NCBI GenBank assembly: GCA_030615745.1
Contig: JAUWYR010000036.1
Coordinates: forward strand, 1-25,035
From: Candidatus Zixiibacteriota bacterium
GTDB taxonomy: Bacteria > Zixibacteria > MSB-5A5 > SM23-73-2
Direction: 5' to 3'
DNA: 25,035 nt
This document shows positions 4,145-21,414 of this stretch, in pieces; within the stretch, counting starts at the first letter, position 1, and each line of letters starts with the position of its first letter. The notes beneath the pieces were generated by a model. It searched no databases. It was not told the DNA's origin and worked only from the letters and a program-made list of their open reading frames with translations. The translations under genes and the position numbers were made by a program.

Positions 4145-5539
4145 ATGGGAAAGATATTAAAATCAGCAATTTTATTTTTGATTTCTTTTTCACTTGTTTC
4201 TGTGACAGTTTCATCAACGGAATTGGAGGAGATCCAAAAAGCTATAAAGGAAAAAGGTGCCAGATGGATCGCTGGTGAGACCTCAGTTTCCAGACTTGCT
4301 CCAGAGCAAAGGAAAAAGCTTTTGGGCGATTTGCCGGTAGAACAAATTGTTACAAAAACCATACCGGCTCTGTCTGGATTGACTACTCCGGATCACTTTG
4401 ACTGGCGTGATAAAGACGGTCACAACTGGATGAGCTCGATAACGAACCAGGGTACCTGCGGAAATTGCTGGGCTCATGCTTCCTGTGGTGCATTGGAGGC
4501 GGTGACAAGAATAACTCTAAATGAGCCAAACAAGAAGGTTAACTTTTCGGAGATGTTTTTGACCTGGTGCAGTGGCAGAGGATGTGATCTTGGATGGGGT
4601 CAAAGTAATACCCTCACTTATATTAAAAACACAGGTGTTCCGGATGAGCAATGCTGTCCCATTTGGGCTGATGAGTGTGCTGATACCTGTAACAACCGCT
4701 ACATAAGATCAGTTTTTATCGACGAATGGTGGCATATGTTCCCATCCATCGACCAAATAAAAGACCGCATAATGAATTACGGTCCAGTTACAGTCCACTT
4801 TGCAGTATACTCAGATTTCTACACCTATAACAGCGGAGTCTATACACATGTATATGGCGATTACGAAGGCTCGCATGCGGTGGCTTTTGTAGGGTGGAGT
4901 GATACTGATAGCTGTTGGATCGTCAAAAACAGCTGGGGAACCGATTGGGGAGAGCCCGGTGGAGGAGAGGAAGGAGGGTGGTTCAGGATTGCAATGGAGA
5001 CCTCTGGTACAGGGATTGATGATGAAATATGGTATATGACTGTGGACATCTCCACCATCCACGATATTATTGTAACTCACCCTGATGGTGGTGATTACTT
5101 TATAGCTCAGGAATTCAAAAGCGTCAATTGGGTCTCGCCCTACTTTGATGGAAACAACGTCAAAATTGACTACTCACTTGACAACGGTTCAAGCTGGTTC
5201 AATATAACTCCTACTACCTTCAATGACGGAGACTATAGTTGGTCTGTACCTGATACTTCGTCTTGTTATTGTCTGATCAAAGTCTCAGATGCAGAAGATG
5301 AAAACCCATTTGATGAAAGCGACGATTTGTTCTTTATCATCCAGCGTGGTGATGTAAATAAGGATTGTTCCTGGAATTTAGCAGATGTGATCTTTTTAGC
5401 CAACTATTTGTTGAAGAGCGGACCCGTTCCTGACCCTCTGAAACTCGGGGATGTCAACTGTGATGGGCTGATAAACCTCAGCGACGTTATCTTTTTATCT
5501 AACTACTTACTTAAGGGAGGAGAAGCACCTGGCTGTTAG
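4145..5539 (+). CDS. Secreted papain-like (C1A) cysteine peptidase with C-terminal dockerin
   Basis: A 464-residue exported protease. Residues 1-24 form a signal peptide (K, then ILFLISFSLVSVTVSS). Residues 26-65 look like a short propeptide (ARWIAGETSVSRL). The peptidase domain is about 84-300: Gln102 (oxyanion hole) and catalytic Cys108 in NQGTCGNCWAHAS, His244 in GSHAVAFVG, and Asn262 in IVKNSWGTDWGE, so the triad is complete. About 305-400 is a beta-sandwich-like linker domain of unknown type. Residues 401-464 are a type I dockerin with two calcium-loop repeats, GDVNKDCSWNLADVIFLANY and GDVNCDGLINLSDVIFLSNY. AAGGAGG lies just before the ATG. Dockerins normally bind cohesins, but in FCB candidate phyla they are common on secreted proteins without cellulosomes. 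It is monocistronic and closed by the terminator at 5569. Confidence 0.93.
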   Translation: MGKILKSAILFLISFSLVSVTVSSTELEEIQKAIKEKGARWIAGETSVSRLAPEQRKKLLGDLPVEQIVTKTIPALSGLTTPDHFDWRDKDGHNWMSSITNQGTCGNCWAHASCGALEAVTRITLNEPNKKVNFSEMFLTWCSGRGCDLGWGQSNTLTYIKNTGVPDEQCCPIWADECADTCNNRYIRSVFIDEWWHMFPSIDQIKDRIMNYGPVTVHFAVYSDFYTYNSGVYTHVYGDYEGSHAVAFVGWSDTDSCWIVKNSWGTDWGEPGGGEEGGWFRIAMETSGTGIDDEIWYMTVDISTIHDIIVTHPDGGDYFIAQEFKSVNWVSPYFDGNNVKIDYSLDNGSSWFNITPTTFNDGDYSWSVPDTSSCYCLIKVSDAEDENPFDESDDLFFIIQRGDVNKDCSWNLADVIFLANYLLKSGPVPDPLKLGDVNCDGLINLSDVIFLSNYLLKGGEAPGC

Positions 5540-9182: not shown

Positions 9183-9351
9183 AGAATAAGCTTAACCAGA
9201 AAAGACTTTTTAGTCCTGTTTGGAAAAATATCTGACAAAAGACCTTACTTATAAACATTTCGTATTCTTTTTTGCATCTAAAGATAACCTACACGGATGG
9301 ATAGTCTCTACCTTTTTAGTTATAAAAATTGATTTTTTTTTATAAATAATA

Positions 9352-9381
9352 AAAATGGGGATTTTTAAAAATCCCCATTTT
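9352..9381 (-). terminator. Terminator downstream of the pilin gene
   Basis: A perfect 30-nt palindrome (AAAATGGGGATTTTT and its complement, 15 bp) is followed on the minus strand by a T-rich tract. It lies 37 nt after the TAA that ends the extended pilin frame, and not after the earlier TGA, which fits the idea that the gene really extends to 9419. Confidence 0.85.
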
Positions 9382-9389
9382 CTTTTTTT

Positions 9390-9408
9390 CCAGCTAAGAC
9401 TTAGCTGG
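9390..9408. repeat. Second hairpin after the pilin gene
   Basis: CCAGCTAAG and CTTAGCTGG form a perfect 9-bp inverted repeat around a single A, between the pilin TAA (9419) and the terminator palindrome. It could stabilise the 3' end of the pilin mRNA; this role is inference. Confidence 0.6.
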
Positions 9409-9418
9409 TGGCATCATT

Positions 9419-9583
9419 TTAGGTGTTTTGGAGCACTCCATCTTGGTCTATTTTCCAGGTATCGATTGTGGGATCATCATCTAAGTTCGCAGTGGCTCTG
9501 CAAGTGAAACTGTTAGAATCAGCAGTTATTCTGTAAGTGTATCTCGCATCAGGCATAATCTCCACACCAATAGGCCTGAATGT
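9419..9583 (-). other. In-frame continuation of the pilin gene beyond an internal TGA
   Basis: Immediately after the TGA at 9586-9584 the same frame stays open for 54 codons to TAA at 9421-9419. The peptide contains P-I-G-V-E-I-M-P-DARYTYRITAD, F-T-C-R-A-T-ANLDDDPTIDTW and KIDQDGVLQNT. This is the usual C-terminal half of small type IV pilin-like proteins (ARYTY... then a D-D-D-x-x-x-D-T-W-x-I-D-x-x-G strand), so it belongs to the pilin and not to a separate gene. It has no start or ribosome binding site of its own. The complete product would be 133 residues. Either the gene carries a nonsense mutation or error, or the TGA is recoded. Confidence 0.85.
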
Positions 9584-9820
9584 TCAACCTCCACACATGG
9601 TCTGACCATTACAACAATAGTAATCATTCTCCATCTTGAAAGCTCTCTGCATCACATAGATCTGTTTTAAAATCATCTTAGCTTCAGTCTGTTTTGATTT
9701 TGTCGTAGCTTTCATAAAACGAGGAATTGCCAGGGATGCTAAAACCCCGATGATAACCCCAACAATCATCAACTCAATCAAAGTGAAACCTGTTGATTTT
9801 CCCTTAAATTTAATCAGCAT
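9584..9820 (-). CDS. Type IV pilin-like protein, N-terminal part up to an in-frame TGA
   Basis: The 78-residue product has a prepilin peptidase site G-FTLIELMIVGVIIGVLASL: cleavage after Gly11, methylatable Phe12 and the Glu at mature position +5, followed by the hydrophobic alpha-1 helix and A-I-P-R-F-M-K-A-T-T-K-S-K-Q-T-E-A-K with A-F-K-M-E-N-D-YYCCNGQTMCGG at the end. The signal-type N-terminus directs it to the inner membrane and a type IV pilus or pseudopilus. AAAGGAGTG lies 5 nt before the ATG. The frame ends at TGA (9586-9584), but pilin sequence continues in the same frame to 9419. TGA is a genuine stop elsewhere here (ribD, tamB, the amidotransferase). No other pilus genes are in the window. 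Confidence 0.85.
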   Translation of the reverse strand: MLIKFKGKSTGFTLIELMIVGVIIGVLASLAIPRFMKATTKSKQTEAKMILKQIYVMQRAFKMENDYYCCNGQTMCGG

Positions 9821-10098
9821 ATTTTCACTCCTTTCTTAATTTTAAATTTTTATATGTAGCTATTTTTTATCATAATTTTTAGAGCAAAAGATATGCACTA
9901 TCTCGAAATCTTTCTTTAAGTTTTTGAAAGTCAAAATGTTTCGTTTTTCAAAATCTCAAGTTTTATTATTTAAGTCTTGATTCTTTCAAGCAGAATGCTC
10001 GCTTTTTTGCAAATTACAATAATAAACTATAAATTTTTTCAATTTGAGATTTTCAGAAATCGTATAATTTTATTAGGAAATAAGAAGGATTCTTAGAG

Positions 10099-10836
10099 AT
10101 GAAATCGTTGCTTGTTTTTCTTTTTATCCTGCTTTTAGTAAATTTCTGCTTTGCCCAAGAAAAAATAGAGCTCTGTTACCAGATAAATATTGATACGTTG
10201 ATTGTAGGCTATCATTCTGAAGTTGACATCGGCGCAATCTCACTCTGGTTTTTTCATACCGGATACCAGATCGATACGGTAATATTCCTTGAGCCCGCTC
10301 AAAATATGGACTACTCAGATTACAGAGATTCATTGGGAATGCTGAGAATATTGGTCTGGAGTCTGGGGGCAGAGATAATACCAAAAGGCACAGATTATCT
10401 TCTTTCAATTTACCTTTCAGGAGAAGGAACCATCCTTTTAGATACAGCGGATGTTTCTGATAATTTGGGACAGATATTAACTTACGAGGAGGTGGATTGT
10501 TCTGAATTGTGGGTAGATTGTCCTGAATCAGAGCAAAAGGAAAATCTTTCTTTACCTGAAAATTTCATATTATTTCAAAACTACCCCAATCCTTTTAATC
10601 TTTACACCAACATTTTATATGAGTTAAATCATGAGTTTTTCGTAAAATTAGAAATTTACGATATCTGTGGGAAGAAGGTAAAAACTCTCCTTTCAAAAAA
10701 ACAAACCCCGGGTTTTAAAAGTTTGGTCTGGGATGGAAAAGATGAAGATAAAAACCTTCTGCCCAGTGGAGTTTATTTTTATAGGCTAAAAGTCGGAGAT
10801 CAAGAGAAAACCAAAAAGATGGTCCTTTTAAAATAA
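10099..10836 (+). CDS. Secreted protein with FlgD-like/type IX-style C-terminal sorting domain
   Basis: A 245-residue exported protein with signal peptide at 1-20 (K-S-L-LVFLFILLLVNFCFAQ). Residues 21-145 form a beta-rich module resembling a short cohesin-like or extracellular adhesion domain (repeated I-D-T, D-I-G-A-I-S-L-W, L-L-D-T-A-D-V-S-D), not assignable to a family. Residues 152-245 are a FlgD-Ig-like/T9SS type A domain: LPENFILFQNYPNPFN, then L-E-I-Y-D-I-C-G-K-K-V-K-T-L, W-D-G-K-D, LPSGVYFYRLK and a K-K-M-V-L-L-K end. Such tails target proteins to the type IX secretion system or anchor them in FCB bacteria. It is divergent from the pilin gene; a perfect TATAAT at 10063-10068 may be its -10, with no clear -35. 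Confidence 0.85.
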   Translation: MKSLLVFLFILLLVNFCFAQEKIELCYQINIDTLIVGYHSEVDIGAISLWFFHTGYQIDTVIFLEPAQNMDYSDYRDSLGMLRILVWSLGAEIIPKGTDYLLSIYLSGEGTILLDTADVSDNLGQILTYEEVDCSELWVDCPESEQKENLSLPENFILFQNYPNPFNLYTNILYELNHEFFVKLEIYDICGKKVKTLLSKKQTPGFKSLVWDGKDEDKNLLPSGVYFYRLKVGDQEKTKKMVLLK

Positions 10837-16952: not shown

Positions 16953-17030
16953 TTTTTTATGATAAGTTTTTTCATAAATGCTAAAACGAATTTGTTAAAC
17001 ATTTAAATAATTCAGGAGATTTATGGTAGG

Positions 17031-17048
17031 CGCAGGCTTCAGCCTGCG
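17031..17048. repeat. Short GC-rich palindrome
   Basis: CGCAGGCT and AGCCTGCG form a perfect 8-bp inverted repeat around TC. It is in the leader of the amidotransferase gene and makes an apparent but spurious upstream reading-frame extension. Confidence 0.75.
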
Positions 17049-17073
17049 AGAAAAAACTATTTTCAATAACAAA

Positions 17074-17140
17074 CACAGGTTGCCTGCCCGGCCAGGGCCT
17101 GCCCGTTCAGGGCCTGCCCGGCCAGGGAGACAAGCTGTGT
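17074..17140. repeat. GC-rich element with three 15-bp tandem units
   Basis: Three units of GCCTGCCCGGCCAGG (the middle one with TT in place of GC) occupy 17082-17126 and are enclosed by nearly complementary arms ACACAGGTTG (17074-17083) and CAAGCTGTGT (17131-17140). One more unit copy occurs at 18635-18649 and a degenerate one near 21310-21322. The G+C of this element contrasts with its A/T-rich surroundings. Confidence 0.85.
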
Positions 17141-17169
17141 TACCGATATTTAAAAAGGTGAATCATAAA

Positions 17170-19200: not shown

Positions 19201-21249
19201 ATGAGAAGATTTTTAGCCCCGAAATTTCTTGCCCATCTTAGGTTAAGATACGCCATACTTATTACTCTACTTTTAGCAACGATTCTTTTCTTCATCGCTT
19301 TTTTCGGAATTCAGAAAAGCAAATCAAATATGCTTGAGGTAATGGAAAGAGAGGGGAAGGCTCTGTTGGAAAGCCTGATTCTGGCAAGCAAGAATACTAT
19401 TTCCGCTAACCTTCTAATTGAGGATTTATCTGCGGACAAGCTTCTGGATATTGCCAAGCTGGTTGACCGGTTAGATAACGAAGGAAAAGTCACAGAAAAG
19501 CAACTTTTAGAAATAGCAAACCTCACCGGCGTTTTAAGAATTGATATATTAGATAAAGATGGAAAAATAGTTCAAAGCAACAACCCTTTTGATAAAAAGA
19601 TATATGAGGACACCTCTGGTGTAGTCTATTCAGTGCTAAACGAGTTTATCAATGAGGAGACTGAGGAGGTCTTTTTCAAGATAGAAAAAGAGGATATATT
19701 AAAAGAGATAAGATATGGTGTTATAAAAAGAAGGTCTGAAAAAAAAGGAGCAATAGTAGCCATAGCACCTGCTGGGTATTTTCGCGGATTCGAGGAAAAG
19801 ATTGGGATCGGTTACTTTATTCAGAGGATAAGTCAGGAGTCGGGTATAGAATACATTTTGCTCCAATCCGAGCAGGGGATCGTTTTCGCCTCAAAAAAAG
19901 TTGAGAGGATGCTCAAGATAGAAGCTGACCCTTTTTTGCAAAAATCATTAAATCAGAACCTCTCCCTAAGCAGGGTCATACCATTTGAGGGCAGGAATGT
20001 CCTGGAGGTGGTGAAACCATTTTTATCAGAAAAATATCCAAAAGGGATTTTTAGATTAGGGTTGTCTTTGGAGGGGTACAATCAGGTATCGGAAAGTTAT
20101 ACCCGTCAGATGATATTTTTTGCTATAATTCTTTTTATCTTAGGTATTGTTCTAATCGGAATAGTGGTGATAAATCAGAGCTATTTTGTTCTGGATAAAT
20201 CTTTCAAACAGATTAAGACCATAACCGGAAATGTTTTGGAGGGGATGGAAAGCGGAGTGGTGGCTGTTGACCAAGATGGGAAGATAATAATCATAAACAG
20301 GGTGGCTGAGTCGATTTTCTCTTTAAAAAAAGAGGATGTGTTAAACAGAGATTACTTGCAGGTTTTCCCTGAGGATGAGCCTCTTTTAAAAAAGACCTTA
20401 AAACAAAGAAAAATTGTCAGAGGAAAAGAGGAAGAATTCAAGACTTTTTCTGGTGAAGAGAAGTTTTTGATAATTGGAACTTCCACGATATATGATGAGG
20501 AGGGGCAAATGGGTGGTGCGGTATCTGTTATACACGATGTAACTGAGCTGAAAAAATTCGAGGAGGAGGCAAAAAGAGCAGAAAGGCTGAAAGCATTAGG
20601 AAGTTTAGCCGCTGGTGTTGCTCACGAGATAAGAAACCCATTGAATGCAATCTCCATTGCCACTCAGAGATTAAAAAAGGAGTTTATTCCGACGAAAAAC
20701 GAAGATGAATACACCTCCTTCACCAATACGATCTTAAAAGAGATAAAAAGGCTCGACTTAATAATCAATCAGTTTCTGAGTCTGGCTAAAGCTCATAAGT
20801 TAAATTTAGCTGAAACTGATTTGAATTCATTGTTAAACGAGATATTAAAATTAGTTGAGATGGAAGCACAGGATCGAAAGGTCATAATAGAGAAAAAAAT
20901 AGAAAAACTTCCTAAAATTCAAGTTGACAAAGAGGAGCTCAAAAAGGCTTTGTTAAATATATTATTAAATAGTGTCCAAGCCACACCACCAGAGGGAAAA
21001 GTGTTTTTTGAATCATTTTTTGATGAGGAAAAAAATGAGATTTTGATAAAAGTTAAAGATTCTGGTCCAGGAATCCCCAAGGAAAATCTTCGCAGGATAT
21101 TCCAGCCCTATTTCACCACCAAAGAGAAGGGAACCGGTTTGGGTTTAGCCATAGCATACCGGATAATAGCTGACCATAAAGGAAAGATCGAGGTAAAAAG
21201 CGAGGAGGGAAAGGGGACAACTTTCATCATAAGATTGCCTGTGGAATAA
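19201..21249 (+). CDS. Membrane sensor histidine kinase (PAS-HisKA-HATPase, NtrB/ZraS-like)
   Basis: A 682-residue kinase. A membrane helix at about 17-38 is followed by an extracytoplasmic sensor region (40-300, beginning with a long helix, Cache-like with I-D-I-L-D-K-D-G-K-I-V and a G-Y-F-x-x-x-I block) and a second helix at about 303-325. A PAS domain at about 335-450 contains G-M-E-S-G-V-V-A-V-D-Q-D-G-K-I and ends V-I-H-D-V-T-E-L. HisKA has phospho-acceptor His475 in GVAHEIRNPLNAI. The ATPase domain shows the N box with Asn590 (L-L-N-SVQATP), G1 D-S-G-P-G-I-P (620-626) and G2 GTGLGLAIA (644-652). ATG at 19201 has GGGAGG upstream; an in-frame ATG at 19183 lies inside the promoter. The HEIRNP type usually pairs with NtrC-like regulators; none is adjacent, so it is an orphan here. 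Confidence 0.94.
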   Translation: MRRFLAPKFLAHLRLRYAILITLLLATILFFIAFFGIQKSKSNMLEVMEREGKALLESLILASKNTISANLLIEDLSADKLLDIAKLVDRLDNEGKVTEKQLLEIANLTGVLRIDILDKDGKIVQSNNPFDKKIYEDTSGVVYSVLNEFINEETEEVFFKIEKEDILKEIRYGVIKRRSEKKGAIVAIAPAGYFRGFEEKIGIGYFIQRISQESGIEYILLQSEQGIVFASKKVERMLKIEADPFLQKSLNQNLSLSRVIPFEGRNVLEVVKPFLSEKYPKGIFRLGLSLEGYNQVSESYTRQMIFFAIILFILGIVLIGIVVINQSYFVLDKSFKQIKTITGNVLEGMESGVVAVDQDGKIIIINRVAESIFSLKKEDVLNRDYLQVFPEDEPLLKKTLKQRKIVRGKEEEFKTFSGEEKFLIIGTSTIYDEEGQMGGAVSVIHDVTELKKFEEEAKRAERLKALGSLAAGVAHEIRNPLNAISIATQRLKKEFIPTKNEDEYTSFTNTILKEIKRLDLIINQFLSLAKAHKLNLAETDLNSLLNEILKLVEMEAQDRKVIIEKKIEKLPKIQVDKEELKKALLNILLNSVQATPPEGKVFFESFFDEEKNEILIKVKDSGPGIPKENLRRIFQPYFTTKEKGTGLGLAIAYRIIADHKGKIEVKSEEGKGTTFIIRLPVE

Positions 21250-21266
21250 CAACAAGACCGAGTGTT

Positions 21267-21414
21267 CGCCAGGTCCCCTGACCTGGCGAGAAAAACTGTC
21301 GGGTCAGCTTGCCTAGCCAGGGGGGACCCGACCAGCACAGATGAGATTTTTTTCAGTGCTGTCGGCAATTACCTCCCACAGAACTCTAAGCGTCAGGAGT
21401 GGAGTTCCTGACGC
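21267..21414. repeat. Row of four intergenic hairpins after the kinase gene
   Basis: CGCCAGGT-CCCCTG-ACCTGGCG (21267-21288), GTCGGGTC (21298-21305) with GACCCGAC (21325-21332), CAGCAC (21333-21338) with GTGCTG (21356-21361), and GCGTCAGGA-GTGGAGT-TCCTGACGC (21390-21414). All stems are perfect. The second loop contains TTGCCTAGCCAGG, a relative of the 15-bp unit at 17082. They occupy the gap between the convergent kinase and S41 peptidase genes and could also help terminate transcription, though none has a proper T tract. Confidence 0.85.

Follow-up and report, generated by a model that had tools for sequence, protein, structure and literature searches.

A type IV pilin gene on the minus strand of the 25,035-nucleotide stretch analysed here (the window), whose nearest named records are from Candidatus Zixiibacteriota, carries one TGA within its reading frame, and this raises the question of whether the gene is broken or whether the codon is translated, and as what. 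The original prediction had taken a point mutation or an assembly error as the simplest explanations and had set selenocysteine (Sec) beside them as an alternative. From the comparisons described below we consider it very probable that the product of this gene is a stand-alone type IV pilin with Sec at UGA codon 79, inserted by the cell's SelA/SelB/SelC/SelD system, and the apparently broken gene is most likely intact. In what follows G000 is the genome of the window, G001 a genome of the same genus and G003 one from another family of the same order. The features of the locus are collected in Table 1.

Table 1. Features of the UGA pilin locus (window coordinates)
Feature	Position	Strand	Remarks
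Type IV pilin gene with one in-frame UGA	9422..9820	-	133 aa if read through
In-frame UGA, codon 79, Sec (inferred)	9584..9586	-	Also in G001:C101 and G003:C44
Putative Sec motif C-N-G-Q-T-M-C-G-G-U (C70..U79)	9584..9613	-	CxxU type
TAA ending the frame in G000, six codons ahead of the stop of homologues	9419..9421	-	
TAA aligned with the stop codon of homologous pilins, within the 3' hairpin	9401..9403	-	
Intrinsic terminator GAAAATGGGGATTTTTAAAAATCCCCATTTTT	9351..9382	-	Stem alike in the other two UGA pilins
Shine-Dalgarno-like AAAGGAG 5' of ATG 9820	9828..9834	-	Read from sequence
Candidate distal SECIS hairpin CCAGCTA-AGTCT-TAGCTGG	9390..9408	-	-9.3 kcal/mol; loop G 183 nt past the UGA
Originally predicted stem 3' of the UGA	9549..9579	-	Judged no SECIS: not conserved

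An interrupted pilin frame

The frame runs as first described, from the ATG to the TGA and on through 54 open codons to a TAA, and the codons ahead of the TGA are ATG TGT GGA GGT (M-C-G-G), in agreement with the Cys-Gly-Gly-TGA context that had been claimed. A strong intrinsic terminator is present 3' of the second stop only, and TGA is an ordinary stop in this genome, both as noted before; it terminates 5 of the 19 clear genes of the window. That TGA could be a sense codon in this organism, for example for Trp, has nothing in its favour except the open frame, and this idea is hardly credible given these five terminations and the use of UGA at known Sec positions by selD and the formate dehydrogenase gene.

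The read-through product had been called pilin-like, and its leader, family matches and predicted fold identify it as a type IV pilin. The class III prepilin leader MLIKFKGKSTG^FTLIE retains G-1, F+1 and E+5, and the product scores above the cut-offs of both PF07963 (Pfam N_methyl) and TIGR02532. In the predicted model (pLDDT 80) an N-terminal helix (residues 14-65) is followed by beta strands forming a sheet, and the best PDB match in Foldseek is Myxococcus xanthus PilA (8tj2), with further matches to 1ay2 and 4d40, at E values of only 1e-3 to 3e-2. Processing machinery is present in the genome too, in the form of a prepilin peptidase (PF01478) encoded in G000:C70. Compared with the PilA and PilA_Myxo pilins (NF041775; 8tj2), the UGA pilin has the same prepilin leader, helix and C-terminal beta sheet, whereas it differs in its CxxU motif in the alpha-beta loop, its in-frame UGA and its solitary gene, and at 78-86 bits it lies far under the curated NF041775 cut-off of 400 bits. 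Its identity with the tandem pilins of its own genome and of the phylum is 60-67%.

The G000 copy has gained its early TAA, yet the old stop and the 3' hairpin have been retained (window 9403-9421). It also shows V21G and other changes at otherwise conserved helix positions; together with the early stop, these may reflect faster evolution of this copy.

The genes next to the UGA pilin differ between G000/G001 and G003, and offer no functional hint. In the window the pilin lies between two secreted proteins, a C1A-type cysteine peptidase that has dockerin-like repeats (4145-5539) and a protein whose C-terminus carries a T9SS-like sorting domain (10099-10836). Elsewhere, GC-rich intergenic stretches (window 17023-17160 and 21108-21368; L072 3440-3560; L073 6500-6800) have similar translations (GAGFSLR or AAGFSLR, LPARPGPARSGPARPG, DGQADPKGEFPSGQGT) and artificially lengthen open reading frames; from their sequences they look like dispersed repeats.

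Conservation of the TGA and of the sequence beyond it

In a search of 146 relatives, one internal TGA was found, among the matches listed, in three pilins, those of G000, G001 and G003, the second being 79% and the third about 64% identical to the first. All three conform to the consensus C-N-G-[QK]-[TS]-M-C-x-[GA]-TGA, of CxxU type, at a site where the ordinary pilins of the phylum have an ASAGG-like sequence. Across 132 genomes of the class, the pattern CNGxxMC matches just these three pilins and no others. A pilin-anchored Cys-x-x-TGA pattern gave in-frame matches in G001 and G003 only, the G000 gene being missed owing to V21G in the anchor, and in three further matches the gap lengths were not multiples of three. 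The Cys of the CxxU motif therefore appears solely together with the UGA, and both Cys76 and MCx[GA]U are confined to TGA-bearing pilins.

The residue opposite the TGA in homologues had been proposed as an indicator, with Cys expected in the case of Sec, and here the outcome is divided: homologues lacking the TGA have Gly, Ala or similar and not Cys, which speaks against Sec, while the restriction of Cys76 to TGA-bearing copies speaks for it. Among the class pilins searched, none had Cys at the position of the UGA, and the Sec reading is weakened by this. Almost all known selenoproteins do have a Cys homologue, as a usual and not a universal feature. Moreover, no UGA pilins were found in 17 genomes of one neighbouring phylum. 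A single origin of the three genes, as one clade, was neither shown nor rejected (AU test, p 0.32). A grouping of the G003 UGA pilin with its own genome's pilin was tried and rejected (p 0.001).

Between G000 and G001, dN/dS is 0.113 before the TGA and 0.034 after it, at synonymous sites that are near saturation (pS 0.62 and 0.71, respectively). Third positions account for 24 of the 34 nucleotide differences after the TGA, no frameshift is found beyond it, and the amino acid changes number 8 against 22.4 expected if the region were unselected, a value as low as which was reached in none of 20,000 simulations. Judged by these substitutions, the 54 codons past the TGA are under strong purifying selection; the low dN/dS and the few amino acid changes indicate a region that both lineages translate and need. 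Three species thus have an in-frame UGA with conserved coding sequence on both of its sides.

These results bear directly on the point mutation or assembly error that had been put forward as the simplest explanation, both of which are excluded because the TGA recurs in three independent assemblies and the codons that follow it are under selection. A nonsense mutation in a dying gene would fit the extra early TAA of the G000 copy and its several changes in the conserved helix; the recurrence of the same TGA in three independent genomes of two families, the low dN/dS past it and the absence of frameshifts make a dying gene, like an assembly error, very unlikely.

Selenocysteine machinery and candidate SECIS elements

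All four components that the original prediction had named as worth searching for are present in the genome of the window, where tRNA-Sec (selC), selD, selA and selB form a compact operon in that order (G000:C32, L072, 3204-7868). Moreover, other genes of this genome also have UGA at Sec positions: selD contains one (..SSFG-UGA-ASKC..), accompanied by a strong SECIS, GATGCAG-GTT-CTGCATC, and the formate dehydrogenase gene has a UGA at the usual Sec position. In G001, tRNA-Sec, selD and selB were found. In G003, tRNA-Sec is present at the edge of a contig, and about 5 kb separate the UGA pilin from a UGA formate dehydrogenase gene; selA, selB and selD were not found in this 82% complete assembly, selA having been sought by reading the neighbourhood only.

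The selenocysteine alternative is thus well supported by a CxxU motif common to three species and by complete Sec machinery. A different way of translating the codon would be a leaky stop, read through by a near-cognate tRNA (Trp, Arg or Cys) to give a short and a long pilin and involving no selenium. A conserved UGA and a conserved downstream frame do not by themselves name the amino acid, and to that extent they suit this explanation equally; we nonetheless find it improbable, as the Cys at -3 occurs only with the UGA, the genomes have a Sec system, a SECIS-like loop is present and termination at the UGA would leave no more than a pilin helix. Comparing the sequences, we infer Sec as the inserted residue, and with less certainty that SelB is recruited by a hairpin at the gene end.

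According to reviews, the SECIS of bacteria is located 16-37 nt from the UGA, and that of archaea and eukaryotes in the 3'-UTR (PMC10778597; PMC13188914). The bacterial element (bSECIS) is defined by a loop of 3-9 nt, a stem of 4-16 bp, a G in the first two loop positions and a minimum free energy (MFE) of -7.5 kcal/mol or below (PMC13188914). The stem first pointed out (TCAGGC, 9579-9574, with GCCTGA, 9554-9549, around a 19-nt loop) is present as written; its proposed function as a SECIS is not supported, 3 of its 6 pairs being lost in the G001 copy, no better than chance. Nor did prediction near the UGA succeed, as no hairpin at 16-37 nt meets the bacterial criteria in the three pilins, the best having -3.9, -5.9 and -4.3 kcal/mol. 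In all three these hairpins are no stronger than those of synonymous recodings, and selD stands out (-9.3; fraction 0.007-0.013) in this test, the power of which is limited, the formate dehydrogenase control scoring 0.20.

As a guide to what the SelB of this phylum probably recognises, we collected 27 selD and 18 formate dehydrogenase UGA contexts. In nearly all of these 45 a strong stem is closed by the loop AGUUU, AGUCU, GGUCU, GGUUC or AGGUU, mostly 18-33 nt past the UGA. The selD SECIS lies 32-33 nt past the UGA in the order of the window and about 19-20 nt past it in other families (L100-L147).

Folding of the gene ends revealed a perfect hairpin of 7-8 bp with the SECIS loop of the phylum at the 3' end of all three UGA pilins: CCAGCUA-AGUCU-UAGCUGG in G000 (window 9408-9390), CCGGUUA-AGUUU-UAACCGG in G001 and CCAGCUA-AGUU-UAGCUGG in G003, with energies of -9.3, -8.4 and -9.2 kcal/mol, respectively. 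It follows the UGA at a distance of about 188 nt in G003 and of 183 nt in the two others. Two pairs are compensatory between G000 and G001 (A-U to G-C, and C-G to U-A). The TAA stop falls within the stem in G001 and G003; in G000 the hairpin lies wholly in the 3' UTR and is still intact. Under a strict loop rule, it occurs in none of 69 non-UGA pilins, and terminator-like hairpins in 3 of the 69 satisfy a looser rule only. Moreover, a stem of 7 or more Watson-Crick pairs closed by an RGUY loop of 4-5 nt occurred only eight times in 850 kb of strand sequence, three of these being the hairpins of the UGA pilins.

Other searches were less specific. With a covariance model built from selD and formate dehydrogenase only (R1), the hairpins of G000 and G001 were recovered at low scores of 8.9 and 9.3 bits, with E values of about 4 in 64 kb; the G003 hairpin is absent among the matches listed, and other, chance matches score higher, so this result is supportive at most. 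A loose hairpin pattern gave 13 matches across the class, ten of them away from UGA pilins and, where read, looking like chance. In a distant family, a hairpin identical to that of G001 lies about 90 nt past the UGA stop of an OmpA-like gene (L161 near 1500; G124:C1:2833197-2833215), and is probably a chance occurrence or a terminator-like element.

In shape and energy the 3' hairpin agrees with bSECIS in all three pilins, having a stem of 7-8 bp, a small loop with G then U early, an MFE of -8.4 to -9.3 kcal/mol and the loop found in selD and formate dehydrogenase of the phylum. It departs from bSECIS in distance, its apical loop lying 183-188 nt and not 16-37 nt past the UGA, and in position, as it spans the stop (G001, G003) or lies in the 3' UTR (G000). 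Long-range pairing that would bring the UGA beside it was no better than in shuffled sequences, no second UGA at the right distance for it exists in G001 or G003, and no bacterial precedent for a SECIS 180 nt from the UGA was found. In archaea and eukaryotes, 3'-UTR SECIS elements act from a distance; the candidate resembles these in lying far downstream of the UGA, at or past the coding end, and differs from them in its bacterial loop and in a host with bacterial SelB.

An alternative source of the SECIS signal is an unrecognised, atypical element adjacent to the UGA, with the 3' hairpin serving merely to stabilise the mRNA or to regulate. The SECIS elements of some bacterial selenoprotein genes do not match any model (PMC13188914, PMC12013277), and a weak hairpin, GGUGUG-GAGAU-YAUGCC, is found 21-27 nt past the UGA in all three pilins. 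This hairpin, however, shares its sequence with conserved pilin codons (GVEIMP), can be formed by some non-UGA pilins as well, has a broken pair in G003, does not exceed synonymous recodings in strength and is without a G[U/G] loop, whereas the 3' hairpin carries the SECIS loop of the phylum and tracks the UGA perfectly. We regard an adjacent element as possible and rather doubtful, and give a slight preference to Sec insertion in this type IV pilin by way of a bacterial-type SECIS that lies about 180-190 nt further 3', across the stop codon or past it.

A possible selenium-bearing pilin

In the mechanism that we propose, UGA codon 79 would be decoded as Sec by SelA, SelB, SelC and SelD. The hairpin that brings in SelB would be the 3' one, 183-188 nt downstream and with the loop AGUYU, and not one adjacent to the UGA. 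The product would be a stand-alone type IV pilin, a minor or alternative subunit, exported by the type IV pilus machinery.

In the predicted model the CxxU motif is located in the loop between helix and sheet. This loop is exposed on the fibre in known pilins, and Cys76 and Sec79 could form there a redox-active selenenylsulfide or a metal-binding pair. We tentatively suggest that, in a minor or alternative pilin, this pair serves thiol-selenide exchange, or the binding of metals or metalloids, on the outside of the cell. CxxU is described as a redox motif in many selenoproteins in a 2026 inventory (PMC13188914). The UGA pilin resembles CxxU selenoproteins named there, such as SelW-like and AhpD-like proteins, GrdA and a mercuric transport protein (PMC13188914), in having the UGA within CxxU and a host with SelA, SelB, SelD and tRNA-Sec, whereas it differs in being a fibre subunit with an N-terminal helix and not a thioredoxin-like or enzyme fold, and in having no Cys homologue that could be found.

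The original prediction had stated that a selenocysteine-containing pilin would be new, and the searches agree with this: no case was found in the open-access literature, and a pilin does not appear in the inventory, which covers 119 prokaryotic selenoprotein families and subfamilies (PMC13188914). On the selenocysteine reading, the UGA pilin represents a new family of selenoproteins; confirmation of the distal SECIS would add a new variant to the bacterial mechanism. Apart from this pilin, no fibre subunit is known to us among selenoproteins.

Should the distal hairpin prove to be the SECIS, the 16-37 nt rule for bacterial SelB would fail in at least one natural gene, which would bear on the origin of 3'-UTR SECIS use in archaea and eukaryotes. 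Gene finders that demand an adjacent SECIS or a Cys homologue would overlook such genes and label them pseudogenes. Finally, if the selenocysteine reading is true, these bacteria would have a cell surface filament that carries selenium chemistry.
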